This document shows positions 1 through 10,603 of a DNA stretch of 33,419 nucleotides, piece by piece (within the stretch, counting starts at the first letter, position 1; the number at the start of each line of letters is the position of its first letter). The notes under the pieces were generated by a model. It was given only the letters and a program-made list of their open reading frames with translations. It searched no databases and had not been told where the DNA came from. Source of the DNA: a virus; IMG/VR virus record IMGVR_UViG_3300020442_001802, positions 1 through 33,419 of that record, one strand, 5' to 3'. Position numbers and translations under genes: made by a program.

Positions 1-77
1 CGATATACGCGAACCTTCTTGTCTGCATTAATGAAGTCTACAACTTCGCTGCTCTTCTGAACTCTTGGCTTTTTCAT
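1..77 (-). CDS. Small early protein, 3' end outside window
   Basis: The ATG at 77 opens a reading frame that stays open to the window edge, giving 25 residues beginning MKKPRVQKSSEVVDF. An AAAGG Shine-Dalgarno site lies about 7 nt upstream and a consensus promoter (107-134) lies just behind it, the same layout as the other leftward genes. The visible part is basic at the N-terminus. I do not recognise the family, and the true length is unknown because the stop codon is outside the window. Confidence 0.65.
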   Translation of the reverse strand, partial: MKKPRVQKSSEVVDFINADKKVRVY

Positions 78-106
78 GGTTATCCTTTCGTGTGTGTTAC
101 TCTTCC

Positions 107-134
107 ATTATACAGTCTATATCGTCAAAGTCAA
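107..134 (-). promoter_or_regulatory. Early promoter 1 (TTGACT-16-TATAAT)
   Basis: Read leftward: -35 TTGACT (134-129), 16-bp spacer containing ACGATA, -10 TATAAT (112-107). It drives the partial gene at 1-77 and is one of twelve near-identical cassettes in the left arm. Confidence 0.82.
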
Positions 135-183
135 GGGGGTGCGTCCAGTTTATTTCGCCTTTTTATCCGATTAGTTTGGAAAA

Positions 184-271
184 GACGTAAGTCGTTTGGT
201 GGTAAGGACTTAGGGCGAGCGACCCCCGCCCCGCCGCACCTAAACCCTTACAGCGTAAGGACTTAGGGCGA
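184..271. repeat. Paired-hairpin element copy A (88 bp)
   Basis: This is the first of five copies. Unit 1 is CGTAAGTCGTT, a 7-nt loop, then AAGGACTTAGG. A GC-rich bridge follows, then unit 2, CCTAAACCCTT, a 7-nt loop, AAGGACTTAGG. It lies downstream of the 294-566 gene and behind promoter 1. The outer end of unit 2 is the most diverged of the five copies. Confidence 0.85.
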
Positions 272-293
272 TGAGGAAAAACTTTGAGAAAAT

Positions 294-566
294 CTAGAAA
301 AAACGCTTGACAAGCGAGCCAACAAACGGGATTGCCACCCGCCAGTTTTGCCGTTCCCGGTAGAAGCACCTGAACCCGTCGCGGGTTTGTAGGGTGTCGA
401 TCTTGCGGGTACGTTCAAACTGTGGATCGTCCGCACGATAAGAGCCGGTGATCGTCTTATAACTTAGCGGTTCTTTTTTAGTGTCGCGTTGATCTCGCAA
501 CACACCCCAACGAAACTTAGAACCTTCAACCGGTTGCTTGTAGCTGCACAATACTAAACTTGACAT
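294..566 (-). CDS. Hypothetical protein, 90 aa
   Basis: ATG at 566 with AAAGGT spaced 7 nt upstream. The protein is basic and aromatic-rich: a motif KFRWGVLRD near residue 17, a central stretch rich in Lys/Arg/Asp, and a C-terminal FVGSLVKRFF tail. No transmembrane helix or known motif is recognised. It is separated from the stop of the gp88-family gene by about 94 bp of AT-rich DNA in which I see no convincing promoter, so it may be read through from the promoter at 1449-1476. Paired-hairpin copy A begins 22 bp past its stop. Confidence 0.7.
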   Translation of the reverse strand: MSSLVLCSYKQPVEGSKFRWGVLRDQRDTKKEPLSYKTITGSYRADDPQFERTRKIDTLQTRDGFRCFYRERQNWRVAIPFVGSLVKRFF

Positions 567-659
567 ATTAGTTACCTTTACAATGTTGACTTAAACTGTT
601 AATACATACAAAAATTATTGACAAAATTAAAAATTGTGTCACGCATCACCTCGCCCTTT

Positions 660-1421
660 CTAACTATAGGAAAACTTCACCTTCTCTTTCTTGAGTTGCT
701 TGATTGCTTCCGATGCCTTTGAGCCTTTGGGCTGGACACCGTGAATCAATAGTGCGAATGATTCGTCGCGAATCTCTGGAATCGCTGCGAGTTCGTCAGT
801 GTGGTCAATCTCATAACCTAGTGCTTCCGCTTCGGCTTCCGAGAATACAACCTTGCTTTCGCGAAGATTAAACTCGTCAATCATAAAATCCAAACGACCA
901 CCACGCGAAGCGGTCAAAACTAGATTGTCTGGCAAGCTGTCACGATCTTCTACCCACCACGAAAGTGATTTGGTATAAGCGTAGAACAGTCGGTCGGGAT
1001 ACCATTCTGCGACAAGATGCCACGCTCGAAAATACTTTTGATTGAAAAAATCACCAGCAACGTGAATCCGGCAGATACCAAGATTATCGGGCATAGCGTC
1101 AGCAATAGCACAAGCCATAGAATAGCTAGACTTGAACGAACGCATAGCGTCAAAATTGGCTTTGCGTTTATTGTACGCACTTGGGAATGTTGCCTCTTGT
1201 GATGCAGAGAAACAACGGAACTGGCAATCTTTACCGTCTTGAATCTTGCGACTGTCACCGATCTGGACAACTTTGGATAGGCAATCTTTCGCCATTGGAC
1301 ACGACCAACCAGAGAGAAGGTCGAAGCTGTAAACCTTGCGACGATCTTGCAACCATCGCTCTAATTCTGGAACGTCGTAAAGAGCTTTGAGCTTGGCGTT
1401 TGCATCGCTGAACTTAACCAT
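660..1421 (-). CDS. Phage gp88-family protein (function unknown), 253 aa
   Basis: ATG at 1421 preceded by CGAAAGG (spacing about 7), with a consensus promoter 28 bp further out. The sequence matches what I know of the 'gene product 88' phage family: FDLLSGWSCP (residues 33-42), a Cys quartet C41, C47, C66 and C70, CFSASQE directly after, then IHVAGDFFNQKYF and LFYAYTKSLSWW. The family is common in actinobacterial and other tailed phages and has no assigned role. The clustered cysteines before an alpha/beta-like body suggest a metal or Fe-S site, which is inference. It is the only leftward gene above 150 residues. Family assignment is fairly secure, function is not known. Confidence 0.85.
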   Translation of the reverse strand: MVKFSDANAKLKALYDVPELERWLQDRRKVYSFDLLSGWSCPMAKDCLSKVVQIGDSRKIQDGKDCQFRCFSASQEATFPSAYNKRKANFDAMRSFKSSYSMACAIADAMPDNLGICRIHVAGDFFNQKYFRAWHLVAEWYPDRLFYAYTKSLSWWVEDRDSLPDNLVLTASRGGRLDFMIDEFNLRESKVVFSEAEAEALGYEIDHTDELAAIPEIRDESFALLIHGVQPKGSKASEAIKQLKKEKVKFSYS

Positions 1422-1448
1422 GATAAACCTTTCGTTGGAGTTACCCTT

Positions 1449-1476
1449 ATTATACCATAATCATCGGCAAAGTCAA
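1449..1476 (-). promoter_or_regulatory. Early promoter 2 (TTGACT-16-TATAAT)
   Basis: -35 TTGACT (1476-1471), 16-bp spacer with CCGATGATTATGG, -10 TATAAT (1454-1449). It drives the gp88-family gene 28 bp downstream and possibly 294-566 by read-through. Confidence 0.85.
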
Positions 1477-1497
1477 GGGCTAAACTTTAATTTATTT

Positions 1498-1591
1498 TGG
1501 CGAACCAGAGGGGAATTGCACCCCACGCCCACCTTGGGCTTTAAGCGGATTTGCACCGGCTACCGCTCTAGCGGCTAGGAACATAATTGTA
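1498..1591 (-). ncRNA. Degenerate tRNA-Leu-like sequence ending in CCA
   Basis: Read leftward, the 3' end looks like a class II tRNA. There is an anticodon-like hairpin (1563-1544) with loop TGCAAAT, which would place CAA (Leu), then a long variable-arm hairpin GCCC-AAGGT-GGGC (1539-1527). A T-arm GGGG-TGCAATT-CCCC follows, then CTGGTTC, a discriminator G and an encoded CCA (1500-1498). Against a working tRNA: U33 and U55 are both replaced by G, the D-loop is only 4 nt, and no 5' strand (GAACCAG) pairs with the acceptor end. The 5' limit given is arbitrary. It is probably a decayed tRNA or a tRNA mimic co-transcribed with the RNA at 1597-1728. Confidence 0.4.
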
Positions 1592-1596
1592 CGGGT

Positions 1597-1728
1597 AGAG
1601 GACGGAGGGAGTCGAACCCTCATTCTCTCCAGCACCAAGATTCGCCATAAGGTCACACGCTGCGAAACGTGTAGAAGTTAATCTGAATCCGGGTGTCGCA
1701 ATCTGGAGCCTTGCCAACAAGCGTCCCC
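1597..1728 (-). ncRNA. tRNA-like RNA with ~70-nt anticodon loop
   Basis: The RNA starts about 7 nt after the predicted start site of promoter 3. In order: acceptor strand GGGGACG (1728-1722); small D-arm CTTG-TTGG-CAAG (1721-1710); stem strand CTCCAG (1708-1703); a 70-nt loop holding an inner hairpin ACACG/CGTGT; stem strand CTGGAG (1632-1627); a 5-nt variable region AGAAT; T-arm GAGGG-TTCGACT-CCCTC (1621-1605); and CGTCCTC, which closes the 7-bp acceptor with one G-U pair. Removing about 63 nt from the loop would leave a short tRNA-sized cloverleaf, with T after the A at loop position 32 as U33. CCA is not encoded, and the usual nt 8-9 are absent. It is too short for tmRNA and the insert is too short for a group I intron. 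Confidence 0.5.
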
Positions 1729-1741
1729 GTGTTATACTACC

Positions 1742-1769
1742 ATTATACAATAATTATCGTCAATGTCAA
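1742..1769 (-). promoter_or_regulatory. Early promoter 3 (TTGACA-16-TATAAT), drives RNA
   Basis: -35 TTGACA (1769-1764), 16-bp spacer with ACGATAATTATTG, -10 TATAAT (1747-1742). No protein gene lies between it and the next promoter 265 bp downstream. Its transcript is the tRNA-like region. Confidence 0.87.
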
Positions 1770-1806
1770 GCCCTATCTTGAGATAATTTAAAAGTTTTTT
1801 TTAATT

Positions 1807-1893
1807 GTCGTAAGTCGTTGTCAGATAAGGACTTACGGCGAGCGAGGCCCGCCCCGCCGACCCTAAGTCGTTTGATACCAAGGGTTTACGTTG
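1807..1893. repeat. Paired-hairpin element copy B (87 bp)
   Basis: CGTAAGTCGTT-N7-AAGGACTTACG, GC-rich bridge, CCTAAGTCGTT-N7-AAGGGTTTACG. It lies between a complete intrinsic terminator (1898-1930) and promoter 3, so this copy is not needed to end the upstream operon. Confidence 0.9.
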
Positions 1894-1897
1894 ATTT

Positions 1898-1930
1898 GAA
1901 AAAAGAGAAGCCGCCCCGCTAAGGGCGGCG
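1898..1930 (-). terminator. Intrinsic terminator of the 1963-2517 operon
   Basis: Read leftward: GCCGCCC (1929-1923), 6-nt loop, GGGCGGC (1916-1910), then TTCTCTTTTTT. It sits 33 bp past the stop of the 1963-2166 gene. Confidence 0.85.
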
Positions 1931-1962
1931 TTCTCCCCACAACACGAAAGGTTAGCGAAGTT

Positions 1963-2166
1963 TTACAAGCTCGCTACGCACTTGCTCACGGAGAAACTCT
2001 TGTGAAGTCCGTTTTTCTCACGGACGGTAATGCCACGCCCATTCGGGCCGGTGAAGCTCTTGATCTTAACGCCAGTGACTTGGCGAAGGACGTTCTTCTT
2101 CCCGTTAACTGGGTAAAGGAAAGAAACTTTACGCTCATTGCGTTTAAGGTACAAATCGTTAATCAT
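1963..2166 (-). CDS. Small basic protein, 67 aa
   Basis: ATG at 2166, overlapping the stop of the preceding gene in an ATGA junction, which suggests translational coupling. AAAGGA lies about 8 nt upstream. The protein is basic (many Lys/Arg) and alternates short hydrophobic and charged stretches. Its middle, KIKSFTGPNGRGITVREKNG, looks like beta strands joined by Gly/Asn turns, as in small SH3-like or OB-like nucleic-acid-binding folds; that is inference. Last gene of a three-gene operon, followed by a strong terminator. Confidence 0.75.
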   Translation of the reverse strand: MINDLYLKRNERKVSFLYPVNGKKNVLRQVTGVKIKSFTGPNGRGITVREKNGLHKSFSVSKCVASL

Positions 2167-2306
2167 AGTGCGATCCTTTCGATCTCTGCGTGTGAAACTT
2201 CGTTAACGCTACCGTTAGCGTCAACAACTAAAACGGTGCGACCCTTTATGGCGGTCACGGTTCCAATCGACAATTCGGTGCCGATACCTACAACTGGTTT
2301 ACTCAC
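2163..2306 (-). CDS. Small hypothetical protein, 47-49 aa
   Basis: Two starts are possible: an ATG at 2312 or a GTG at 2306. The Shine-Dalgarno AAAGGAG lies only one base before the ATG but 7 nt before the GTG, so the GTG is preferred. The product, (M)SKPVVGIGTELSIGTVTAI..., is rich in Val/Ile/Gly and looks all-beta, with a KGRTVLVVDANG turn. It overlaps the upstream gene by 8 nt and the downstream gene by 4 nt (ATGA). I do not recognise the family. Confidence 0.72.
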   Translation of the reverse strand: MSKPVVGIGTELSIGTVTAIKGRTVLVVDANGSVNEVSHAEIERIAL

Positions 2307-2517
2307 TCTCATTCTCCTTTGCGAGTTCTGCGGCTGCTTCCGCACGTTCTTTGCGGATACGATCCGCTTTGGTCTTGAGCGTGTCAAACAGATTAAGATA
2401 ATCATCATCGGTCATCTTGATCTGAATCTCGTCACCGTTCTCATCGTTGAACTCCAGCGAGTTCCAGCCGGTGTAAGCTGTGTAAAACTTGGCGGTTACA
2501 GTTTGTTTGACTTGCAT
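2299..2517 (-). CDS. Hypothetical protein with charged helical tail, 72 aa
   Basis: The ATG at 2517 is chosen because AGGAG lies 7 nt upstream; a TTG two codons earlier has no such site. The N-terminal half (VKQTVTAKFYTAYTGWNSLEF) looks like a beta hairpin pair. The C-terminal half, LFDTLKTKADRIRKERAEAA onward, is a long Lys/Arg/Glu helix likely to coil. First gene of the 1963-2517 operon behind promoter 4. No family recognised. Confidence 0.78.
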   Translation of the reverse strand: MQVKQTVTAKFYTAYTGWNSLEFNDENGDEIQIKMTDDDYLNLFDTLKTKADRIRKERAEAAAELAKENESE

Positions 2518-2555
2518 AGTCAATCTCCTAAAAGTGTTGTGAAGTTTACTCTCTC

Positions 2556-2583
2556 ATTATACCATAATTATCGGCAATGTCAA
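2556..2583 (-). promoter_or_regulatory. Early promoter 4 (TTGACA-16-TATAAT)
   Basis: -35 TTGACA (2583-2578), spacer with CCGATAATTATGG, -10 TATAAT (2561-2556). The -35 box contains the TGA stop codon of the upstream gene (2580-2582). Confidence 0.85.
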
Positions 2584-2732
2584 CCGGTAACTTTAGCAAT
2601 TTCCAAAACAATTTCTGCGTCTTTGGCGAGTTCGCTTTTCTTGTCAACGTAAATGCTGCCGGAAACCTCGCCCTTGGCGGTGTAGCGAATCTTGCTCTTG
2701 GTCTCTTTGTCTTTGATGAATTCAACAATCAT
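2580..2732 (-). CDS. Small conserved phage protein (ETK...RY...GSIYV type), 50 aa
   Basis: ATG at 2732 with GGAG 8 nt upstream. The product contains IKDKETKSKIRYTAKG followed by VSGSIYVDKKSEL. This layout (KETK..xRY...G.xYV.K) is one I know from a widespread family of 50-80 residue phage and plasmid proteins of unknown function. The stop codon TGA is embedded in the -35 TTGACA of promoter 4. Its likely promoter is number 5, shared with the gene at 2774-2935. Confidence 0.8.
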   Translation of the reverse strand: MIVEFIKDKETKSKIRYTAKGEVSGSIYVDKKSELAKDAEIVLEIAKVTG

Positions 2733-2773
2733 TTTCTTTTCTCCAATTTTGAGTTTGTTGTGAGCGGGTACGA

Positions 2774-2935
2774 TTACGATTCGTCGCCCGATGTTCCAGT
2801 GTTTGTGCTTTCAGCTTCGCCATCCACGTTCTTGGCTTTGTTTGCTGCTTTAGCTTGTCTGAGCTTCTCGATTTCATTTTGCTGTCTCTCAAATCTTCTT
2901 TTTTCTGCCATGCTTGTGAATATTGTTTCTTTCAT
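2774..2935 (-). CDS. Small charged helical protein, 53 aa (possible leaderless start)
   Basis: The ATG at 2935 lies exactly 6 nt after the TATAAT of promoter 5, so the mRNA would be essentially leaderless. A second in-frame ATG at 2911 (45 aa) has no clear Shine-Dalgarno site. The product is a Lys/Arg/Glu/Gln helix (EKRRFERQQNEIEKLRQAKA) with a Ser/Thr/Asp-rich tail, typical of a short coiled coil. Unrecognised family; which start is used is unsettled. Confidence 0.62.
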   Translation of the reverse strand: MKETIFTSMAEKRRFERQQNEIEKLRQAKAANKAKNVDGEAESTNTGTSGDES

Positions 2936-2941
2936 ACTTCT

Positions 2942-2969
2942 ATTATACCATATCTTTCGTAAATGTCAA
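2942..2969 (-). promoter_or_regulatory. Early promoter 5 (TTGACA-16-TATAAT)
   Basis: -35 TTGACA (2969-2964), 16-bp spacer (the least conserved of the set, TACGAAAGATATGG), -10 TATAAT (2947-2942). Drives 2774-2935 and 2580-2732. Confidence 0.83.
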
Positions 2970-3055
2970 GGGGTAAAATCTTTTTTTCTAAAACTCGCTG
3001 GCTGTACCATATCGCCTTTATCCGGCTTGATAAGCTGAGACAGAGGCCGCATCAT
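2966..3055 (-). CDS. Doubtful 29-codon ORF in an orphan transcript
   Basis: Two adjacent ATGs at 3055/3052 open a frame ending at 2966 in the TGA inside the -35 of promoter 5, the same stop/-35 overlap seen for two other small genes. The peptide is basic (MMRPLSQLIKPDKGD start, SFRKKDF near the end). The only upstream G-rich stretch, GGGA, is too far away to be a good ribosome site. The alternative is that promoter 6 makes a non-coding RNA of about 140 nt; short pairings such as GCGA/TCGC and CTGGC/GCCAG are possible. Confidence 0.3.
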   Translation of the reverse strand: MMRPLSQLIKPDKGDMVQPASFRKKDFTP

Positions 3056-3118
3056 GCACCATATCCCGCAGGACAGTTGGGCCAGACTTACAGTGCGACT
3101 TGTCTCGCTTACTCTATC

Positions 3119-3146
3119 ATTATACTATATTTATCGTCAAAGTCAA
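3119..3146 (-). promoter_or_regulatory. Early promoter 6 (TTGACT-16-TATAAT), orphan
   Basis: -35 TTGACT (3146-3141), spacer with ACGATAAATATAG, -10 TATAAT (3124-3119). Only a doubtful 29-codon ORF or a small RNA lies between it and promoter 5. Confidence 0.83.
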
Positions 3147-3183
3147 GGGGTATCTTCAATCTTTTTCAAACTTTTTTAGAATC

Positions 3184-3270
3184 GTCGTAAGTCGTTAGTA
3201 TCAAAGGACTTAGGTGCCTCGACCCCGCCCCCGCTCGCCCTAAGTCCTTATAGGGCAAGGGGTTACGTCA
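3184..3270. repeat. Paired-hairpin element copy C (87 bp)
   Basis: CGTAAGTCGTT-N7-AAGGACTTAGG, GC-rich bridge, CCTAAGTCCTT-N7-AAGGGGTTACG. Its last three bases (TCA on the plus strand) are the TGA stop codon of the gene at 3268-3549, so coding sequence runs right up to the element. Confidence 0.9.
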
Positions 3271-3549
3271 ATCCGGCAAACGTCCTTCGACGATACCACC
3301 ATGCAGAGCGAATTCACGCTCGAACACTTCGCGGGGAACGTAAGGGTACACGGTGTCGCATGGGTCTTTGAATTCCCCACCTTCCGCATACTCCAGCAAT
3401 TCCTTGCCGGGGATCATAGTGGGGAAGCCGCCTTCCATGTGGGTATGCGGTACGTTATCTTCTCGCGGCAGGCAGTAGCTACTAGAGCGAGCCTGCACGC
3501 TTATTGAGAAACCATCGCGGCAAACAATTCTAGGGTTGAAGGTGTTCAA
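3268..3549 (-). CDS. Conserved phage protein (NPRIVCRDGFS family), 93 aa
   Basis: The start is a TTG at 3549 overlapping the upstream TGA in a TTGA junction; GGAG lies 8 nt before it and there is no nearer ATG. The N-terminus NPRIVCRDGFSISVQA, then YCLPRED, VEGGFP-like HMEGGFPTMIP, LLEYAE, TVYPYVP and a closing ALHGG match a widespread phage family that I know only as conserved hypothetical. It is probably a small alpha/beta protein. The stop lies in paired-hairpin copy C. Third gene of an operon with two very acidic proteins. Confidence 0.8.
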   Translation of the reverse strand: MNTFNPRIVCRDGFSISVQARSSSYCLPREDNVPHTHMEGGFPTMIPGKELLEYAEGGEFKDPCDTVYPYVPREVFEREFALHGGIVEGRLPD

Positions 3550-3713
3550 AACGGGTACTCCAATTCATCAAGTAAATTTTCTAGGTCATCGTCGGCGTGC
3601 TGAGAATCCTCGTCGCCATAAAAATCGTTGTAAAAATCTTCAGCCTCGTGCAAAAGATCCTCATGGTAGTTATCTTCTGCTGGATAAAAATAATTGTCAA
3701 AGTCATCGTACAT
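3546..3713 (-). CDS. Very acidic small protein, 55 aa
   Basis: ATG at 3713 with AGGAG 7 nt upstream. Of 55 residues about 21 are Asp/Glu, none is Lys or Arg, and Tyr/Phe are frequent (MYDDFDNYFYPAEDN; DFYNDFYGDED). Such composition is seen in phage DNA-mimic inhibitors of restriction or nucleases, but composition alone does not prove this. It follows another acidic gene with a 10-bp gap and overlaps the next by 4 bp. Confidence 0.78.
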   Translation of the reverse strand: MYDDFDNYFYPAEDNYHEDLLHEAEDFYNDFYGDEDSQHADDDLENLLDELEYPF

Positions 3714-3723
3714 AGTAAATCTC

Positions 3724-3912
3724 CTACCAAGGGCAATCGGTGTCAAGGTTTTGGAATCCACGGTCGGCATCGGCATCGTAAGCCGCTTCGCCATCGTCGC
3801 CATCGTCGTACCCGATGGAATCGAGATAGTCGAAGTATTCCTGCAAATCTTCCGCAGTCGGAACGTAAACGGCAGGAGTGGTTTCGTCGAAGAGAAAATC
3901 AAGATCGTTCAT
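3724..3912 (-). CDS. Very acidic small protein, 62 aa
   Basis: ATG at 3912 with AAAGG about 8 nt upstream, first gene behind promoter 7. It has about 19 Asp/Glu and a single Arg. A helix-like segment AEDLQEYFDYLDSIG precedes a run DDGDDGEAAYDADAD, and the protein ends DTDCPW. No sequence similarity beyond composition is seen with the acidic protein next to it. Possible DNA mimic or inhibitor; unrecognised. Confidence 0.75.
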   Translation of the reverse strand: MNDLDFLFDETTPAVYVPTAEDLQEYFDYLDSIGYDDGDDGEAAYDADADRGFQNLDTDCPW

Positions 3913-3950
3913 GGTGAACCTTTCAAAAGTGTTGTGACTTGTATGCCTTT

Positions 3951-3978
3951 ATTATACTATAATTATCGGCGTTGTCAA
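3951..3978 (-). promoter_or_regulatory. Early promoter 7 (TTGACA-16-TATAAT)
   Basis: -35 TTGACA (3978-3973), spacer with CCGATAATTATAG, -10 TATAAT (3956-3951). Drives the acidic-protein operon 3912 to 3268. Confidence 0.86.
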
Positions 3979-4074
3979 GTGGTATCGTGAGAAAAAAAGA
4001 AAGTTTTTGGTAATTGAGTGATTTCGACAGAGCTTACCAAACTCCACACCGGCTAGGCCGGGACGGTCGCGGTT

Positions 4075-4284
4075 CTAATCCTCGTCAGATGGGAACATCG
4101 CATCCCAGCATTTTGGACAAATGCCAGAGATGAGAAGCTCACGCTGATCCGCATCAAGCTCAGGTAGAGCGTTGTGGATCAACTCACCTTTTTGCCAAGA
4201 AACGAAACCTTCAAGATCCGCTTGGATCTCGTTTAGCTCGTTGCACTTGACGCAAGGAACCGCAACAACTGCTGTCGTTGACAT
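4075..4284 (-). CDS. Zinc-ribbon phage protein (CPKCWD family), 69 aa
   Basis: ATG at 4284, exactly 6 nt past the TATAAT of promoter 8, so the transcript is predicted leaderless; no Shine-Dalgarno site is available. Two CxxC pairs (C11/C14 and C56/C59) would bind one zinc. Between them is a helical segment with EGFVSWQKGELI and ADQRELLISG. The pattern 'LISG.CPKCWD..F' is familiar from many phage genomes as a small conserved protein of unknown function. A CCGGC-CTA-GCCGG hairpin follows the stop without a T-run. Confidence 0.82.
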   Translation of the reverse strand: MSTTAVVAVPCVKCNELNEIQADLEGFVSWQKGELIHNALPELDADQRELLISGICPKCWDAMFPSDED

Positions 4285-4290
4285 GTTCTT

Positions 4291-4318
4291 ATTATACAAT
4301 ATTAATCGGCATTGTCAA
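4291..4318 (-). promoter_or_regulatory. Early promoter 8 (TTGACA-16-TATAAT)
   Basis: -35 TTGACA (4318-4313), spacer with CCGATTAATATTG, -10 TATAAT (4296-4291). Drives the zinc-ribbon gene with no 5' leader. Confidence 0.86.
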
Positions 4319-4355
4319 GGGCTATCATGAATAAAAATAAAAGTTTTTCCAAATT

Positions 4356-4442
4356 GTCGTAAGTCGTTACTACCAAAGGACTTACGTCGAGCGGGGCCGG
4401 GGCCGGTCGCCCTAAGTCGTTACCAGCAAAGGGTTTACGTCA
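4356..4442. repeat. Paired-hairpin element copy D (87 bp)
   Basis: CGTAAGTCGTT-N7-AAGGACTTACG, bridge rich in GGGGCC, CCTAAGTCGTT-N7-AAGGGTTTACG. The right edge supplies the TGA stop of the tiny ORF at 4440-4502. Confidence 0.9.
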
Positions 4443-4502
4443 ATCTCCGAGAAGTTTCAGTAAAACCCAGATCAAAAAGTTCTCGTGCCATAAATCTTCC
4501 AT
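4440..4502 (-). CDS. Tiny hydrophobic peptide, 20 aa
   Basis: ATG at 4502 preceded by AGGGG at 8 nt, 11 bp after the stop of the upstream gene. The product MEDLWHENFLIWVLLKLLGD has a short hydrophobic stretch that could lie in a membrane. The stop codon is formed by the edge of paired-hairpin copy D. It is supported only by its ribosome site and operon position. Confidence 0.42.
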   Translation of the reverse strand: MEDLWHENFLIWVLLKLLGD

Positions 4503-4513
4503 CTTGTCAACCC

Positions 4514-4753
4514 CTAAACTTGAGAATTTGGCGGAATTAATTCTTGCGGGAAAAATCCGCTGGCGGCGTGTTCGTTTGCACAATGCTGCCGCACACCCAT
4601 AAAAACAGAATCCCGATACGCTTCATCGACCATATCAATATTGTCGAGCATTTCAGACCAATCGCGTGGTAGCTCATAATCGAAACCGCTTTTCACGATT
4701 ACATCAGGGGAGACACCATCGGTCAACATACGAACCATCTTAACTTTCCACAT
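4514..4753 (-). CDS. Hypothetical protein, 79 aa
   Basis: The ATG at 4753 is chosen because GGAGG lies about 9 nt upstream, straddling the stop of the preceding gene; translation is probably coupled. Recognisable stretches are MVRMLTDGVSPDVIVKSGFD, an acidic helix WSEMLDNIDMVDEAYRDSVF and a His/Cys segment VRQHCANEH. No known motif. Second gene of the operon started by the dyad-type promoter at 5203-5234. Confidence 0.75.
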   Translation of the reverse strand: MWKVKMVRMLTDGVSPDVIVKSGFDYELPRDWSEMLDNIDMVDEAYRDSVFMGVRQHCANEHAASGFFPQELIPPNSQV

Positions 4754-4757
4754 AATT

Positions 4758-5174
4758 TTAATCCTCCAAAAGATCGTCTGAGTCAATCAATCCGCCGTTG
4801 ACCATACCGCCAACCAGAGCGGCCATATTTCGGTGCAACTGCAATTCGTCGATTTCGTTCATGCTGTAATCTAGCTCGGAATCAAGATCGACAAAATCGC
4901 CGTGACCGTTGCGAATGGTCTTGGCTTCAACTTGTGCGGCCAGTTTAGCCACGTTGCGAGCTTTTAGCTCTTTGAGTTTGCGGTGTTGGGTGTTGCCGTC
5001 TCGCTCGTCGCATAGTTGCTCAAGACGCTCAAGGGTACGACCGCCACGGGTGTGGTCGTGGAATTCTTCCGGCAGCAGGTGGTTTGGAACCGTGATACAC
5101 TCGCGAATAGCTTTCGCCAATTCGTCGAACATGCGGCCAGTTGCGGGATTGCTCATTTTGCTTTCGTAATTCAT
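4758..5174 (-). CDS. Hypothetical helical protein, 138 aa
   Basis: ATG at 5174 with AAAGG about 8 nt upstream. It is mostly charged helix: FDELAKAIRECITVP near residue 16, then RTLERLEQLCDERDGNTQHR, KLKELKARNVAKLAAQVEAK (likely coiled coil) and an acidic C-terminus ending DSDDLLED. No domain recognised. It is the first gene under the first GTGAC-dyad promoter, so it is probably regulated differently from most of its neighbours. Confidence 0.78.
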   Translation of the reverse strand: MNYESKMSNPATGRMFDELAKAIRECITVPNHLLPEEFHDHTRGGRTLERLEQLCDERDGNTQHRKLKELKARNVAKLAAQVEAKTIRNGHGDFVDLDSELDYSMNEIDELQLHRNMAALVGGMVNGGLIDSDDLLED

Positions 5175-5202
5175 AATTTAACCTTTCGTTTGAGTTACTT
5201 AC

Positions 5203-5234
5203 ATTATACAGATGGCTGTGACACGTTAGGTCAC
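5203..5234 (-). promoter_or_regulatory. Dyad-type promoter 1 (operator at -35, TATAAT)
   Basis: -10 TATAAT (5208-5203). In place of a -35 box there is a 17-bp dyad, GTGAC-ACGTTAG-GTCAC (5218-5234). The same 17 bp recur at 5632-5648 and 6327-6343. Confidence 0.75.
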
Positions 5235-5235
5235 T

Positions 5236-5370
5236 CTATCGGACAATTCCGTGAATTTTGTCCAATTCTTTTCGCTTCTCTTGCTCAGAGATTGTCAACT
5301 CAGCGACCAACTCGATGAGTTGCTCTTTGGTGTAGTGGGCGACTGCTTGCTTGATTTCTTCTTTATTCAT
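5236..5370 (-). CDS. Small helical protein, 44 aa
   Basis: ATG at 5370 with CGAAAGG about 7 nt upstream and promoter 10 just behind. Nearly all helix with heptad-like spacing: EEIKQAVAHYTKEQLIELVA then SEQEKRKELDKIHG. It may be a short dimerising coiled coil. No family recognised. The stop lies 2 bp from the dyad operator of the next promoter. Confidence 0.75.
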   Translation of the reverse strand: MNKEEIKQAVAHYTKEQLIELVAELTISEQEKRKELDKIHGIVR

Positions 5371-5397
5371 GTTTAACCTTTCGTTTGTGTTTCCTCT

Positions 5398-5425
5398 ATT
5401 ATACATAATAATCGTCATTTGTCAA
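5398..5425 (-). promoter_or_regulatory. Early promoter 10 (TTGACA-16-TATAAT)
   Basis: -35 TTGACA (5425-5420), spacer with ACGATTATTATG, -10 TATAAT (5403-5398). The -35 contains the TGA stop of the 5422-5520 gene. Confidence 0.84.
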
Positions 5426-5520
5426 GGGCTATCTTCAAACAAAATAGAATTATTCCAAGAAAAATTGGGACGATGATAAATGACCATAATTCGGTGTTCT
5501 CTGGATTCAACCAATCCATA
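5422..5520 (-). CDS. Tiny protein, 32 aa
   Basis: ATG at 5520 with AGGAG 8 nt upstream, just after the stop of the 23-residue gene. The product starts MDWLNPENTELWSFIIVPIF and ends ILFEDSP. The central WSFIIVPIF is hydrophobic but short for a transmembrane helix. The TGA stop is part of the TTGACA of promoter 10. Unrecognised. Confidence 0.55.
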   Translation of the reverse strand, partial: YGLVESREHRIMVIYHRPNFSWNNSILFEDSP

Positions 5521-5522
5521 AC

Positions 5523-5594
5523 TTATACTCCTGCAACAATACAACCAAGAATCGTGACAATAACCAAAATAATAAACGCTTTTTTCTCTGACAT
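5523..5594 (-). CDS. Tiny membrane peptide, 23 aa
   Basis: ATG at 5594 with a strong AAAGGAG 7-8 nt upstream, first gene behind the second dyad-type promoter. The product, MSEKKAFIILVIVTILGCIV then AGV, is a basic N-terminus followed by one hydrophobic helix, typical of a single-pass membrane peptide. Only two bases separate its stop from the next start. Function unknown. Confidence 0.62.
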   Translation of the reverse strand: MSEKKAFIILVIVTILGCIVAGV

Positions 5595-5615
5595 GTTTTC
5601 TCCTTTGTTACTTAT

Positions 5616-5648
5616 ATTATCGCATCCCGGTGTGACACGTTAGGTCAC
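5616..5648 (-). promoter_or_regulatory. Dyad-type promoter 2 (operator at -35, GATAAT)
   Basis: The 17-bp dyad (5632-5648) is followed after 10 bp by GATAAT (5621-5616). There is no TTGACA-like -35. Drives the two tiny genes at 5594-5422. Confidence 0.72.
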
Positions 5649-5681
5649 AATCACACAACAAAATAAAACTTTTTCGGAATT

Positions 5682-5769
5682 GTCGTAAGTCGTTATGTGG
5701 CAAGGGTTTACGTCGCCGGAAGCCCCCCTCACCGCACCTAAGTCCTTATATAGCAAGGGTTTACGTCGA
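5682..5769. repeat. Paired-hairpin element copy E (88 bp)
   Basis: CGTAAGTCGTT-N7-AAGGGTTTACG, GC-rich bridge, CCTAAGTCCTT-N7-AAGGGTTTACG. Here both 3' arms carry GGGTTTACG, so the units differ less from each other than in other copies. Confidence 0.88.
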
Positions 5770-5800
5770 TTCCGGCCCTAGCTGGCTGGATAGGGTAAGA

Positions 5801-5902
5801 CTACCACGGCCAGTGTAACAATAGGTGGGCTAGTAAGGTTATGCCGAACATGGTAAAGAACGGGACCACGGTAATATAGAGCAAGTCAAGTACAAATCGC
5901 AT
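5801..5902 (-). CDS. Tiny membrane protein, 33 aa
   Basis: ATG at 5902 with TAGGA about 7 nt upstream, 8 bp past the stop of the gene before it. The product MRFVLDLLYITVVPFFTMFG continues into ITLLAHLLLHWPW, giving about 25 consecutive hydrophobic or aromatic residues: one clear transmembrane helix. It closes the operon started at the third dyad-type promoter. No family recognised; a lysis or superinfection-exclusion role is conceivable but unproven. Confidence 0.62.
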   Translation of the reverse strand: MRFVLDLLYITVVPFFTMFGITLLAHLLLHWPW

Positions 5903-5910
5903 AGTTTTTC

Positions 5911-6045
5911 CTAGAAATAAGATTTAATTTTTTTCAGTTGATTGATTGTGTCCTGCATGTCGCGTTGAAATTCTTTGCTCATGCTTGGATCGTTACGGTA
6001 CTCAATCAGTTGGTCAATGATTAATAAGATAAGTTTGTAAAACAT
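5911..6045 (-). CDS. Small protein with hydrophobic N-terminus, 44 aa
   Basis: The ATG at 6045 follows an AGGA site that overlaps the TAG of the previous gene, indicating coupling. Residues 2-12 (FYKLILLIIDQ) are hydrophobic; the rest is a charged amphipathic helix (SKEFQRDMQDTINQLKKIKS). It could be a peripheral membrane peptide or a short coiled coil. Unrecognised. Confidence 0.68.
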   Translation of the reverse strand: MFYKLILLIIDQLIEYRNDPSMSKEFQRDMQDTINQLKKIKSYF

Positions 6046-6055
6046 AATTTTAATC

Positions 6056-6271
6056 CTACTCGTTTGCAGTTCCGAAGCGTGCGAAGTATGCTGCCTTGGC
6101 AGCTTGTTCTTCCTCACTGACAAGCTCGGCAGTGATAACCTCGATTGGCTCATTGTATCCGGTGAACCAAGTTTCGCCGTCGATGTCTTTGAGTTGCGAA
6201 GCAGGAACGTCTAGGTGTCGTACTTCGCGACCGGACCAAGGTTCGATGATTGTGACGTTGTAGCTTTTCAT
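6056..6271 (-). CDS. Hypothetical protein, 71 aa
   Basis: Two starts compete. The ATG at 6271 has AGAGG about 8 nt upstream and is preferred. An in-frame ATG at 6304 lies exactly 6 nt past GATAAT and would be leaderless, adding 11 residues. The protein begins MKSYNVTIIEPWSGREVRHL, which looks like a small beta sheet. An acidic segment follows, and the C-terminal helix is EEEQAAKAAYFARFG. First gene of an operon (6056, 5911, 5801) under the third dyad-type promoter. No family recognised. Confidence 0.74.
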   Translation of the reverse strand: MKSYNVTIIEPWSGREVRHLDVPASQLKDIDGETWFTGYNEPIEVITAELVSEEEQAAKAAYFARFGTANE

Positions 6272-6310
6272 AGTGTTTACCTCTTTGGTGTTGTTGTTTG
6301 TCATACTATT

Positions 6311-6343
6311 ATTATCGGGTAAGGGTGTGACACGTTAGGTCAC
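6311..6343 (-). promoter_or_regulatory. Dyad-type promoter 3 (operator at -35, GATAAT)
   Basis: The 17-bp dyad (6327-6343) is followed after 10 bp by GATAAT (6316-6311). Spacing is identical to dyad-type promoter 2. Confidence 0.72.
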
Positions 6344-6358
6344 GAATACTAGGTATTC
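6344..6358. repeat. 15-bp perfect inverted repeat GAATAC-TAG-GTATTC
   Basis: Six-bp arms around TAG, directly abutting the GTGAC dyad. The TAG stop codon of the gene at 6349-6504 lies inside it. It could be a second operator or a short hairpin at the end of that mRNA; no T-run follows. Confidence 0.6.
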
Positions 6359-6504
6359 TTAAAAGTTTTCCATTTATGTTGAACGTAGTCGCGGGAACCT
6401 TGACAGAGGATTGAGCCGGATGAGGTCACAATCTGGAGCGAGTAATCGCTAGTTTGAACAAGGTGGTAATCGCCGTGATTGTTGGTGTCGATGATAGTTT
6501 TCAT
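6349..6504 (-). CDS. Small hypothetical protein, 51 aa
   Basis: ATG at 6504 with AAAGGA about 8 nt upstream, 31 bp behind the -10 of promoter 13. The sequence reads MKTIIDTNNHGDYHLVQTSD, then YSLQIVTSSGSILCQGSRDY and VQHKWKTFKNT. The alternating pattern suggests three or four beta strands. One cysteine; no motif recognised. Its stop is in the 15-bp inverted repeat. Confidence 0.72.
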   Translation of the reverse strand: MKTIIDTNNHGDYHLVQTSDYSLQIVTSSGSILCQGSRDYVQHKWKTFKNT

Positions 6505-6535
6505 AGTTGTTATCCTTTTAACTTGTTATGTCTTT

Positions 6536-6563
6536 ATTATACTATACTTATCGGATTTGTCAA
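6536..6563 (-). promoter_or_regulatory. Early promoter 13 (TTGACA-16-TATAAT)
   Basis: -35 TTGACA (6563-6558), spacer with CCGATAAGTATAG, -10 TATAAT (6541-6536). Drives the 51-residue gene. Confidence 0.86.
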
Positions 6564-6592
6564 GGGGTATCTTTAACTTTTTAGAAAGTTTT

Positions 6593-6682
6593 TTAAACTT
6601 CCTCAGTCGGGTGAAGGATACCGTAGGCAATCGCCATGCAGATGAAAACCAAACCACCCAAGTAAACCAAACCAGTAATCAT
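6593..6682 (-). CDS. Tiny membrane protein, 29 aa
   Basis: ATG at 6682 with AAAAGGA about 9 nt upstream. The product, MITGLVYLGGLVFICMAIAY then GILHPTEEV, is one transmembrane helix with a short polar tail. It has its own promoter (6717-6744), so it is expressed as a single-gene unit. Function unknown. Confidence 0.62.
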   Translation of the reverse strand: MITGLVYLGGLVFICMAIAYGILHPTEEV

Positions 6683-6716
6683 TTTGTTTTTCCTTTTCGT
6701 TGTTTGTTATGCTTTA

Positions 6717-6744
6717 ATTATACTATAGTTATCGGAATTGTCAA
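6717..6744 (-). promoter_or_regulatory. Early promoter 14 (TTGACA-16-TATAAT)
   Basis: -35 TTGACA (6744-6739), spacer with CCGATAACTATAG, -10 TATAAT (6722-6717). Drives the 29-residue membrane protein. Confidence 0.86.
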
Positions 6745-6753
6745 GAGCAATCT

Positions 6754-6846
6754 TTAGTTTTTCCGAAACTTTTTTTCGAGTTGCCGGTGCTCGATTTCTT
6801 CCTTGACGAACTCAATCAACTCAGCAATCAGGGTGACGAATCTCAT
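6754..6846 (-). CDS. Tiny helical protein, 30 aa
   Basis: ATG at 6846 with GGAG 8 nt upstream. The product MRFVTLIAELIEFVKEEIEH then RQLEKKFRKN is a single amphipathic helix, hydrophobic and acidic at the start and basic at the end. First gene of the leftward array. Unrecognised. Confidence 0.6.
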   Translation of the reverse strand: MRFVTLIAELIEFVKEEIEHRQLEKKFRKN

Positions 6847-6889
6847 TTTGTTTTCTCCGTTGTTTGTTGTTTGTCTCTCGTATGTCTCT

Positions 6890-6917
6890 ATTATATACTA
6901 TCGGCAAGACTTGTCAA
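6890..6917 (-). promoter_or_regulatory. Early promoter 15, outermost leftward promoter
   Basis: -35 TTGACA (6917-6912), spacer with GCCGATAGTA, -10 TATAAT (6895-6890). It is the first of the leftward series. Confidence 0.85.
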
Positions 6918-7481
6918 GACCTTTAGCGGAAAAATAAAAAGTTTTTTGGGGGTATTTTATCTTCCTGACAAAACGGCAGCGACCTGCCAAAATGGCAGTA
7001 GGTGGTTCAGATGCAATACGGCGATGCCGCAGGTGTGTCTTACCCAAAGCATATAAGTCGGCCCTCTGTATAAAAATAATTATATGTAGCTTCTAATAGC
7101 TTCCTGTCGGTACGTACCAAGACCATTTATACCTGTAAAGAGAAGAGTGTCGCCCCTTACCAGATACTTTAGTTGTTTTAGAAAGCAGTTAAGTCTTCAA
7201 TGCTTTAGTTTTTACACTCGCTAATTTCTTCTTCTTACTCTATGTTCCGTCAGGAACCTTTACAGGACTGAGTTGACATGGTGGGTCATTGCTCAGATTT
7301 AAATTTTTTGCTTAACCTCGGAGTGCTTGTTCACTCACCAGTAACTTTCTTTTCACTGATTGGTCAGAACGCGAAACTGCACCAATAACGTTTTTTTACA
7401 AATTTTCAGTGAATTGTGACACTTTACAACCATTGCCACACCCTATTATAGTCAATTTTGACGGATTTTGCAAAAAGATTC
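6918..7481. other. Divergent intergenic region, no gene seen
   Basis: About 560 bp between leftward and rightward genes. No frame of useful length has a ribosome site; the longest plus-strand ATG frame (36 codons from 7276) lacks one. It contains two direct repeats at 6964-6998 and a GTTCC-GTCA-GGAAC hairpin near 7244. An isolated GTGAC half-site lies near 7416, and AT-rich runs occur at both ends. It is the likely place for regulator binding or a replication origin, but nothing decisive is visible. Confidence 0.5.
6964..6998. repeat. Two 16-bp direct repeats, alternative hairpins
   Basis: CCTGACAAAACGGCAG and CCTGCCAAAATGGCAG are separated by CGA and match at 14 of 16 positions. The middle CTGCC can pair with the GGCAG before it or the one after it, so two exclusive hairpins are possible. 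They lie 47 bp behind the outermost leftward promoter. Confidence 0.7.
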
Positions 7482-7739: not shown

Positions 7740-8295
7740 AATCAAAGAAAATGGTATTGCTCTCGGTTGCTGCGGCATGGAAGAAGCGACTGATGACTTA
7801 ATCTGTCAACAATTATCGCAAGGAAACCCTGAACTTTGCGATCTATGTAACTTTGTTGATAAAAAACAATACTTTTTCTTTCAATTTACCACTAAAGATA
7901 ACAACATTACCTATTGTGTTGGACAAATGGGTGATGAGTTTGTTACATACTCGGCCCTCTATTGGTCAGATGGTAAAGAAATCGTCCCTATTCAGCCACG
8001 AGATCTAGACGTAGACGAACCAATTGTCATAAAAAACTGGATTCCTAGTAAATTTGAGACTCCCAACTCGGTAAGAACCTCTTCAGGCGATGCCGTCATA
8101 GAGAATAATCATATTCTTACCTCGATAGACAATAAAATTGTCACTATTTCCATTAATGATCTCAAAAATGAGTATCTTTCTTTTAAACCATTGACCAAAC
8201 GGCCACAAAAACCGAAACAGGGCACTATTTTCTTCAACAAGAACAAAAAATGCCTAGAATGTTACGATGGGCAAACTTGGAGGGCACTATGGTAA
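7696..8295 (+). CDS. Hypothetical protein, 199 aa, possibly virion-associated
   Basis: ATG at 7696 with AAGGA 5 nt upstream, inside the preceding gene. The N-terminus (TILGTIAVPARIKENGIALG) is followed by a Cys-rich stretch with CC at 25-26 and C37, C48 and C51. A beta-rich middle and a C-terminal module GTIFFNKNKKCLECYDGQTW follow. That last module resembles the 'GTIYFN...YDG..W' endings of phage structural and fibre-associated proteins, which is the only hint of role. It overlaps the sigma-like gene by 7 bp. Confidence 0.72.
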   Translation: MIIKTILGTIAVPARIKENGIALGCCGMEEATDDLICQQLSQGNPELCDLCNFVDKKQYFFFQFTTKDNNITYCVGQMGDEFVTYSALYWSDGKEIVPIQPRDLDVDEPIVIKNWIPSKFETPNSVRTSSGDAVIENNHILTSIDNKIVTISINDLKNEYLSFKPLTKRPQKPKQGTIFFNKNKKCLECYDGQTWRALW

Positions 8296-8807
8296 TACCA
8301 CCGGGAATGACAGAAGAACAGGTTATAGACCAAATTAACACTGTTGTCAATAGAATGTCACACAAATATACCTTTCATGGATATACAGTTGATGACATAA
8401 AACAAGAGGCTTTCATTATTTGCATGGAGGCACTTAACAGATATGATGGAATTCGCCCTTTAGAAAACTTTTTATCGGTAAATCTAAGCAACAGACTCAA
8501 AAACTTCATCCGTGACAATCATTTCTTCGGATATAACGAGGAGGACGAACGGCACAACATCCTTCAACCAGCACAACTTGACTTCGAGGACAACATTATC
8601 GACGGTCAAGAGAAATTCGCCACCTCGTATGACCAAATTCAACTAAATGACATGTCAGATATCATCGACAAGCACCTTCCAGCCAATCTTCGTATGGATT
8701 ATTTGAAGATGAAGAATGAAATTTACATCTCCAAACATCGAAGGGAAGAAATTGTCGCTGTAATCAAGACTATCCTAGAGGAGTATGGATACCATGAAGA
8801 AGGGTAG
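8289..8807 (+). CDS. Sigma-factor-like protein, 172 aa (late-sigma candidate)
   Basis: The ATG at 8289 is chosen for GGAGG 5-6 nt upstream. Residues about 25-75 read MSHKYTFHGYTVDDIKQEAF, then IICMEALNRYDGIRPLENFL and a basic helix NLSNRLKNFIRD. This is the layout of sigma-70 region 2 (core-binding and -10 recognition helices). The C-terminal part has no clear region 4 helix-turn-helix, although KHRREEIVAVIKTILEEYG is helical. The length is close to T4 gp55 (185 aa), which reads -10-only late promoters. A role at the GTGTATAAT motifs downstream is inference. Confidence 0.7.
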   Translation: MVIPPGMTEEQVIDQINTVVNRMSHKYTFHGYTVDDIKQEAFIICMEALNRYDGIRPLENFLSVNLSNRLKNFIRDNHFFGYNEEDERHNILQPAQLDFEDNIIDGQEKFATSYDQIQLNDMSDIIDKHLPANLRMDYLKMKNEIYISKHRREEIVAVIKTILEEYGYHEEG

Positions 8808-9606
8808 GATCTCAAGAGAGGAAGAACAGTTCATCAAGGACAATATTTCTTTTGGTTTAGACCATTTATCCTCAGAGTTAGACCGCGACCCTAAGTCTCT
8901 GACTAAGTTTATCAAGAAGAAGATTGCCAAAGGTGACATAGAAGAACCTTCTTGGATGCGTTCAAGGGCTGATGAAGAGAGGGCAAAGTACGATCTTACC
9001 TATAGACCATACTGGAAAGAGCTAGAGCAGCAGTTTACCAACGAAGAACTCAAACTTTTTGAGTATCATTGGACCAGAATTATATCTCAGTTCAAAGATG
9101 ACGTTATTCCAACCGAAGAACTGCAAGTTGTTGACCTTATCAAGCTAGAATTACTTATGAACAGAGCATTGAAAGGTAATAAAGATAACCTTGAGCAGAT
9201 ATCCGCTCTAGACGCTCTGATTACGGCTGAGAGGCAACGCGACCCCGACCAGATAGATACAGACCAACTTTTTAATATGGAGCGTCAGGTAGCGTCTCTG
9301 AAAGCCTCACAGGAGTCTCTGAACAAGGACTACCGTGAACTACAAACAAAAAAGAACAGTATGCTCAAGGAGATGAAGGCAACTCGTGAGCAAAGAGTGC
9401 AAAGAATCGAAGACTCTAAGAAAAACTTTACTGCTTGGATGGCACATCTTGTCGCTAATCCTGAGATAACCAAACAGTACGGTGCAGAAATGGAGAAAAT
9501 GCGTTTAGCTATGAAGCAAGAGCAGGAACGACTAGCTAAATTCCATGAATACACCGATGGACAGGTAGATCAACCTTTTCTAACACCAGATACCGTTGAG
9601 GACTAG
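8794..9606 (+). CDS. HTH + coiled-coil protein, possible small terminase, 270 aa
   Basis: Two ATGs are possible. The one at 8794 has GAGGAG about 10 nt upstream; that at 8785 has it 1 nt away. The first 40 residues (REEEQFIKDNISFGLDHLSS followed by SLTKFIKKKIAKG) look like a helix-turn-helix. The centre is helical, and residues about 160-250 form a long coiled coil (VASLKASQESLNKDYRELQT; MKQEQERLAKFHE). DNA-binding N-terminus plus oligomerising helices upstream of TerL fits a terminase small subunit, but four other genes intervene, so this remains a candidate. It overlaps the sigma-like gene by 14 bp. Confidence 0.55.
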   Translation: MKKGRISREEEQFIKDNISFGLDHLSSELDRDPKSLTKFIKKKIAKGDIEEPSWMRSRADEERAKYDLTYRPYWKELEQQFTNEELKLFEYHWTRIISQFKDDVIPTEELQVVDLIKLELLMNRALKGNKDNLEQISALDALITAERQRDPDQIDTDQLFNMERQVASLKASQESLNKDYRELQTKKNSMLKEMKATREQRVQRIEDSKKNFTAWMAHLVANPEITKQYGAEMEKMRLAMKQEQERLAKFHEYTDGQVDQPFLTPDTVED

Positions 9607-9613
9607 GACTATA

Positions 9614-10603
9614 ATGAAAAAAGCTATTATTTTCGGAATTACCGGCCAAGATGGAAGCCATCTAGCCGACCTGTTACTCTCAAAGGATTACCACGTAGTG
9701 GGAATCTCTAGAAGAGCCAGCACTGACAACACACAAAGAATCAAACACATCCTTGGGAACGAAAGGTTCGAGTTGATTCAAGGTGACATTACTGATGCTT
9801 ATTCTGTTATAAATATACTTAAAAAACATGAAGATGTAGATGAAATCTATAATTTAGCCGCACAGTCACATGTAGCAGTGTCGTTCAAGCAACCAGCACT
9901 CACATGGGACATAACAGGCAAGGGCTGTTTAAATATCTTACAGTCTATGGTAGATCTAGAAATTGATGCTAGGTTCTATCAGGCTAGTTCTAGCGAAATG
10001 TATGGAAAGCACTACGATAGAGATCGCGAAGGCAATAAGTATCAAAATGAAGAAACTAAGTTTATGCCTCAGAGTCCGTATGCAATTGCAAAAGTTGCAG
10101 CACACGAACTGACTAGATTGGTAAGAGAAGCATACGATTTACACGCTAGTGCCGGTATTCTATTTAATCATGAAGGTGAACGAAGAGGCGAAACCTTCGT
10201 AACGAGAAAAATTACGAAGTGGATCGGGGACTGGGTTAAGAGCGGTCGCGATCCTAACTTTCCGCAGCTACGTCTAGGCAACTTGGAAGCATTTAGAGAT
10301 TGGGGGTATGCTGGAGATTATGTGGAAGCGATGTGGATGATGCTACAGCAGGATAGTCCACAGGATTATGTTATCTGCACCGGCGAAACTCATACTATTC
10401 GCGAGTTCCTAGATGTAGCTTTCTCATACACTGGAGTTGACGATTGGTCTGATTTAGTAGTTCAAGACCCTGAATTCTATAGACCAGCAGAGGTGGATTA
10501 CTTACGGGGCGATTGCAGCAAGGCAAACAATGTATTGGGATGGACTCCTAAACACAGCTTTGAAGATTTGGTCAAGAAGATGGTAGAACATGATATATCA
10601 TGA
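9614..10603 (+). CDS. gmd: GDP-mannose 4,6-dehydratase, 329 aa
   Basis: ATG at 9614 with AGGA 5-6 nt upstream. Extended short-chain dehydrogenase: NAD(P)-binding GITGQDGSHLADLL (residues 8-21), the active-site segment QASSSEMYG, YAIAK with the catalytic Tyr and Lys, and the family signature NHEGERRGETFVTRKIT. The enzyme converts GDP-mannose to GDP-4-keto-6-deoxymannose, the precursor of fucose, rhamnose and perosamine sugars. It is full length with all catalytic residues. Carried by a phage among packaging genes, it probably alters host surface polysaccharide or supplies a sugar for modification; no partner epimerase or transferase is in the window. Confidence 0.95.
   Translation: MKKAIIFGITGQDGSHLADLLLSKDYHVVGISRRASTDNTQRIKHILGNERFELIQGDITDAYSVINILKKHEDVDEIYNLAAQSHVAVSFKQPALTWDITGKGCLNILQSMVDLEIDARFYQASSSEMYGKHYDRDREGNKYQNEETKFMPQSPYAIAKVAAHELTRLVREAYDLHASAGILFNHEGERRGETFVTRKITKWIGDWVKSGRDPNFPQLRLGNLEAFRDWGYAGDYVEAMWMMLQQDSPQDYVICTGETHTIREFLDVAFSYTGVDDWSDLVVQDPEFYRPAEVDYLRGDCSKANNVLGWTPKHSFEDLVKKMVEHDIS

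Follow-up and report, generated by a model that had tools for sequence, protein, structure and literature searches.

A near-invariant 17-bp palindrome in place of the −35 element suggests an activator-dependent promoter class in uncultured tailed phages

Three promoters of an uncultured virus carry an identical 17-bp dyad at the place where a −35 element would meet sigma region 4. The window analyzed here is a whole IMG/VR record of 33,419 bases, which is classed as linear and is therefore probably a fragment. A nearly unchanging palindrome that replaces half of a normal promoter suggests that some protein steers the host RNA polymerase to a few genes of the early region, and comparison with related sequences indicates that this arrangement is the common property of a clade of uncultured tailed phages. 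We give a probability of roughly 0.6 to the reading that the dyad promoters are an activator-dependent class, in which a putative binder near −31 replaces the contact between sigma region 4 and the −35 element. The dyad would be the site of a sequence-specific activator, either phage-coded or borrowed from the host, and would span about −39 to −23 when the −10 element is counted as −12 to −7. Bound there, the activator would hold the host core RNA polymerase on a promoter without a −35 element and help it to read a GATAATA (less often TATAAT) −10 element, downstream of which transcription would start. The dyad promoters would form a second class, probably middle-type, beside the early TTGACA-N16/17-TATAAT promoters on the same strand, with the late-type promoters (GTGTATAATA) on the opposite strand as a further class.

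The exact 17-mer occurs three times in the window (5218–5234, 5632–5648, and 6327–6343), and no further site was found there with up to three mismatches allowed. At that tolerance, 0.07 sites were expected by chance, and none of 100 shuffles reached three. The genes are on the minus strand, and their transcribed strand accordingly reads GTGACCTAACGTGTCAC, which stands 9, 10, and 10 nt upstream of the −10 element in promoters 1, 2, and 3, respectively; all three copies are kept in the clade. These matches bear out the sequence-only reading, which had described three promoters with an identical 17-mer 9–10 bp from the −10 element, and its positions 5203, 5616, and 6311 are the coordinates of the −10 elements themselves (minus strand: TATAAT at 5203–5208, GATAAT at 5616–5621 and 6311–6316). 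Behind promoter 1 lies an early open reading frame of 138 aa (4758–5174, minus strand), which has relatives in the early region of five of the seven other clade contigs compared, and for which no known family and no PHROG match were found. Promoter 2 precedes the gene of a 23-aa peptide predicted from its sequence to be a membrane peptide (5523–5594, minus strand), and promoter 3 precedes an early gene of 71 aa (6056–6271, minus strand), in whose family 17 of 23 promoter assignments are of the dyad type. All these genes belong to the left part of the window (~1–7000), where numerous small genes run leftward, many of them behind a promoter of their own. The large terminase gene (12261–14255) and other genes beside it run rightward. 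No known cultured relative is near the window by DNA, relatives of the large terminase are only distant (24.6% for the best among the matches listed), and the sigma-like protein discussed below has no relative in the phage collection.

The dyad is conserved in one clade. A search for the 17-mer beyond the three window sites, which the sequence-only reading had proposed as a check, revealed its clade-wide occurrence. In the IMG/VR collection, 78 stretches contain the exact 17-mer, and a pattern with a free center, NATAAT, and a spacer of 7–12 gave at least 120 matches. Where exact 17-mers are followed by NATAAT at 7–12 nt, the spacer is 10 in 65 of 66 aligned cases, the sole exception being the window's own site at 5218. 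Across 77 clade loci (690,017 bases), which were largely chosen via the dyad itself, there are 74, 36, 24, and 14 sites with 0, 1, 2, and 3 mismatches, respectively. This makes 148 sites at three or fewer mismatches versus none in the same sequences reversed, whereas at four mismatches 7 sites compare with 5 in the reversed sequence. As the loci are related by descent, the site counts do not represent independent events.

Because loci chosen via the dyad make the argument circular, an independent sample was drawn from relatives of the GDP-mannose-dehydratase-like protein encoded at 9596–10603 (best 80 of 323 kept; 20 of the 80 loci have less than 500 bases of early region). Where the early region of a protein-selected locus measures 3 kb or more, the dyad is present in 16 of 22 loci, and where it reaches 6.7 kb or more, in all seven. 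Among the 60 loci whose early region is 500 bases or longer, 50 dyads lie on the early strand and a single one on the opposite strand. A second script, run over all 80 loci and requiring an intact GAC in the left arm, returned 50 dyads in 21 loci, 48 of them with a −10 element at 9 or 10 nt. Six loci (L278, L255, L233, L210, L275, and L248) lack the dyad although their early region measures 3 kb or more, and the promoters recognizable in them are of the TTGACA type. When the 38 records reached through loci were searched whole, 35 matched a strict dyad-plus-−10 pattern (1–4 matches each) and none matched a backward control pattern; one of the 35, an uncultured Cocleimonas genome (G038), is probably a chance hit. 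Most clade contigs are incomplete, and the eight long contigs that were scanned completely contain 1–8 dyads each, in the early region and, except for one 3-mismatch site, on the early strand, along which TTGACA promoters continue.

The dyad promoters were also sought in bacteria. In one scan, a 33-base dyad-plus-−10 pattern matched 12 stretches of bacterial genome contigs and gave no clear sign of a host transcription-factor regulon, as the two clade-like matches look like binned phage contigs and the others like chance. Those two (L174, from a Thalassolituus MAG, and L180, from a Cytophagales MAG) are small contigs with dyad promoters in a clade-like context, and L174 also carries relatives of window genes. 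As both are probably phage fragments binned with bacterial MAGs, they do not count as host evidence. In the literature searched, which lay mostly outside subscription journals and preprints, no occurrence of the 17-mer or its 15/16-base cores was found, nor, judged by titles and abstract starts, any report of such a promoter.

The dyad is locked to the −10 element in both distance and direction. When clade loci, protein-selected loci, and long contigs were pooled and scanned together, 155 non-redundant dyads were obtained, of which 137 have a −10 element downstream (135 at exactly 10 bp and 2 at 9), always in the same orientation. No part of the promoter is better conserved than the dyad, which holds 29.7 bits across its 17 positions. 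Positions 2–6 (TGACC) and 11–15 (GTGTC) are kept in at least 141 of 146 sites; the most variable are position 1 (G in 112, T in 27) and the center (position 7: T in 118, A in 27), which coincides with the presumed −35 position. Among 129 sites, positions 3–5 and 13–15 pair in every case, and positions 6/12, 7/11, and 8/10 almost never do; despite the palindromic arms, this asymmetric center always faces the same way. The absence of TTGACA from the three window promoters, as described from sequence alone, extends to the clade, with no site of 129 above 3/6 matches at spacers of 15–19. A TGn motif precedes the −10 element in 47 of the 129 sites, and 82 have neither a −35 element nor TGn. The median distance from the −10 element to the start codon is 37.5 nt for dyad promoters and 39 or 36 nt for TTGACA promoters with 16- or 17-bp spacers, respectively. 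These similar leader lengths argue that the in-register GATAAT is the real −10 element.

This anatomy bears on the choice, left open by the sequence-only reading, between an activator touching the polymerase and a repressor covering the −35 element. Contact with the polymerase demands a fixed distance and orientation and repression does not, so an activator standing in for the −35 contact is favored, in keeping also with the missing −35 element and the variable dyad center. It is distinctly unlikely that the dyad is an operator at which a phage or host repressor, masking the upstream portion of a weak or extended −10 promoter, silences the genes until its removal. The palindromic arms would suit a repressor, the TGn motifs mean that some of the promoters could work without a −35 element, and two rare dyads lie just downstream of TTGACA promoters. 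However, an operator would have no need of the 10-bp distance kept in 135 of 137 sites, an intact −35 element under the dyad was never encountered, many sites would have neither that element nor TGn to rely on, and dyads are rare on the many TTGACA promoters.

Some dyads stand apart from any −10 element (18 of 155), and the putative dyad binder may therefore have other roles too. Twelve of the 18 lie near the clade's second repeat family, two form an overlapping tandem, and two are those just downstream of a TTGACA promoter. In the tandem (L071, 7662–7693; 13895–13926 in G005), the two dyads overlap with a period of 15 bp, and a degenerate promoter of the TTGACA type follows downstream. In the other pair (L304, near 137500 in G002, and L188, near 157729 in G001), the dyad centers fall at about +8 and +22 past TTGACA promoters, where a repressor would sit. 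The 12 dyads near the other dyad repeat are also what could be cited for the view that the dyad serves mainly DNA maintenance (replication, partition, or packaging) and stands upstream of genes by accident. We regard this as highly improbable, as 137 of 155 dyads have a −10 element at a fixed distance in one orientation, with leader lengths like those of other promoters.

The −10 element itself differs from that of the TTGACA class. Its first base is G in 93, T in 19, and A in 5 of 117 dyad promoters, whereas T occupies this position in 206 of 210 exact-TTGACA promoters; the base following it is A in 107 of 117 versus 89 of 210. This preference for G at the first base argues against a simple reliance on the host primary sigma. 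Two other readings of the region were dropped. An alternative −10 element, 12 nt past the C that begins CGATAAT, has its last T in only 1 of 146 sites, and the leaders fit the in-register element. The sequence GCCGATAA resembles the −10 element of sigma28, and the would-be TAAA of such a promoter is the varying part of the dyad. At the place where a TTGACA promoter would have its −10 element, the 146 dyad promoters show TATAA(A/C/G), as if a second −10 element were avoided.

The systematic difference in the −10 element could also reflect a phage sigma factor, distinct from the host primary sigma, that reads the dyad and GATAATA with or without a helper. Candidates would be the short region-2 protein encoded at 8250–8807 or, in relatives, a protein with region 2 plus region 4. 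The short protein (185 aa, plus strand), in which region 2 is recognizable, is encoded by one of the first genes that run rightward next to the early region. Sigma region 2 (PF04542) is matched in 26 of 27 clade contigs, above the family cut-off in 22; the window's frame scores 23.1 bits alone (cut-off 24) and 24.9 bits in the genome search, and the window has no match to sigma region 4 (PF04545). The best PDB hits of its profile are sigma factors (E = 0.0005 and weaker), and the top fold matches of its model, which is of only moderate quality (mean pLDDT 71.9), are sigma factors as well, none below E = 0.001. In nearly all clade contigs, this gene adjoins the early region. Among the long contigs examined for sigma-like proteins (G001–G005, G007, G008, and G010), most have a second, fast-diverging one in the replication half, some with a clear region 4. 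That sigma-like proteins are so widespread speaks for a phage sigma at the dyad promoters, but we still consider it rather unlikely. To our knowledge, a 17-bp dyad centered near −31 is not a normal target of sigma region 4; the second sigma differs greatly from contig to contig, in contrast to the nearly constant dyad; and the late-type promoters already suit the short sigma.

The short sigma-like protein is a candidate late sigma. The late-type promoters of the window, which lack a −35 element, consist of GTGTATAAT after a T-run on the plus strand at 7502, 14262 (14262–14270), 16347, and 19510. The four copies compare with 0.35 expected, no shuffle of 100 reached four, and three copies stand just before the rightward genes at 14317, 16372, and 19571. 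The late motif was not found on the late strand of the long contigs G002, G004, and G005. TTGACA early, dyad, and late-type promoters all occur in the window, so that three classes of promoter are recognizable in its sequence.

The genes under the dyad are partly shared with the TTGACA class. Fifty gene families were found first behind a dyad promoter, and 18 of them are also found behind a TTGACA promoter in other contigs, indicating that promoters were swapped in evolution and that the regulon is not fixed. The proposal that the dyad genes form a regulon separate from the TTGACA set consequently stands only in part. Tiny predicted membrane proteins are the first genes in 16 of the 50 dyad families versus 10 of 87 TTGACA families (Fisher p = 0.006, for one of several features examined in families that are not independent of shared ancestry).

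The TTGACA promoters of the leftward region have features of their own. With at most one mismatch to TTGACA-N16-TATAAT, the window contains twelve leftward promoters between 134 and 6917. In the minus-strand promoters at 105–6920 and in 269 TTGACA promoters of clade loci, a CGATA is fixed 12 bp upstream of the −10 element (41 of 131 promoters with a 16-bp spacer and 60 of 138 with a 17-bp spacer; off by one base in 1 of 138), and the dyad promoters' own −10 element, CGATAATA, has this element in common with them. At 1500–1735 and 2990–3115 on the minus strand, two TTGACA promoters lead into stretches that hold no obvious gene and look partly tRNA-like to the eye (GGTTCGACTCC-like), and for which neither ARAGORN nor Rfam reported anything. 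In one phage contig, ARAGORN identified a permuted tmRNA with the tag AEPCLALAA (L197, 19620–19947; G005). Five intergenic repeats of ~108 nt (166–273, 1789–1896, 3166–3273, 4338–4445, and 5664–5771) each have two imperfect dyads of the TAAGTCnTT...AAnGACTTA type flanking a GC-rich core, and in relatives the 17-bp dyad is sometimes beside such a repeat. These repeats may be terminators, processing sites, or maintenance elements.

A search for the dyad binder among the conserved clade proteins examined yielded no candidate that was both universal and convincing. It comprised profile scans of 62 and 68 small proteins from two contigs (among the matches listed) and Pfam and PHROG comparisons of selected conserved proteins. 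A ~69-aa helix-turn-helix (HTH) protein is encoded beside the sigma gene at the head of the early region (L194, 16221–16439, and others; 20 matched frames, some from overlapping loci) and has a weak PHROG match to a transcriptional regulator. It is missing from the window and from the long contigs G001, G002, and G005, so it would not be the general binder unless it has been replaced there. A DUF932 protein, whose G003 copy is 54–58% identical to the G001 and G005 copies, is flanked by dyads in one contig; it was rejected as the binder, as no link to DNA binding and no PDB relative were found. The frame at 8785–9606, a neighbor of the sigma-like gene, begins like an HTH protein and may encode a small terminase subunit, for which no PDB or Pfam support was found. 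In ten clade contigs, some of which may be incomplete, the MotA families (PF09158 and PF09114) gave no match at E values up to 1, and the AsiA family (PF09010) gave none over the cut-off, with one chance-level match in a 2351-codon frame.

The closest known parallel is the middle promoter of phage T4. T4 middle promoters have a MotA box, (a/t)(a/t)(a/t)TGCTTtA, centered at −30 and 12 ± 1 bp from the −10 element, which replaces the −35 element, and about half of them have TGn (PMC2988021). The complex resolved by cryo-EM has MotA and AsiA on either side of the upstream DNA, holding it between them (PMC6755090). The dyad promoters share with them a box near −30 in the −35 place at a nearly fixed distance from the −10 element, a TGn motif in a sizeable part of the sites (47 of 129 here), and the presence alongside of strong early promoters with TTGACA and of a distinct late class. 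However, the MotA box is asymmetric and 9–10 bp long, whereas the element here is a 17-bp dyad, TGACCnnnnGTGTCA, at 10 bp from the −10 element rather than 12 ± 1 bp. MotA tolerates changes in its box and the dyad is almost invariant; the T4 −10 element is near-consensus TATAAT and the one here is GATAATA, with G first in 93 of 117; and each contig has few sites, unlike the T4 middle promoters. Homologs of MotA and AsiA were not found in the ten clade contigs, either. As the box, spacing, −10 element, and known proteins all differ, the dyad promoters would work like T4 middle promoters without being members of that group. We tentatively suggest that this clade of uncultured large phages may have invented the T4 middle plan independently, with a symmetric activator unrelated to MotA and AsiA at −31 in the place of region 4, possibly a non-primary sigma, GATAATA as the −10 element, and an early/middle/late program visible in a 33-kb window. 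Takeover of the polymerase by replacing its −35 contact is best known from T4, and the clade would offer a second, apparently unrelated solution. The near-invariant 17-bp address can be ordered as an oligonucleotide, which would make the putative factor directly fishable, and the dyad provides a way of predicting expression classes in many uncultured phages and possibly a new orthogonal promoter/activator pair for laboratory use.

Other systems resemble the dyad promoters in part. Phages phiEco32 and 7-11 encode a sigma of their own and have, next to early promoters of the host type, well-conserved phage promoters in low copy number (PMC4331800). Their motif is set by that sigma, whereas the dyad promoters are conserved in a palindrome that occupies the −35 place. 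Promoters read by a region-2-only late sigma of the T4 gp55 type have a −10 element and no upstream element, unlike the promoters described here, in which the dyad is the most conserved part. Promoters of the CRP class II and MerR types likewise place a dimeric activator, as proposed here, on a dyad next to the RNA polymerase. CRP class II sites are centered at −41.5, beside the −35 place and not on it, and MerR sites lie between a real −35 element and the −10 element. Neither plan fits a dyad centered near −31 in a promoter without a −35 element.
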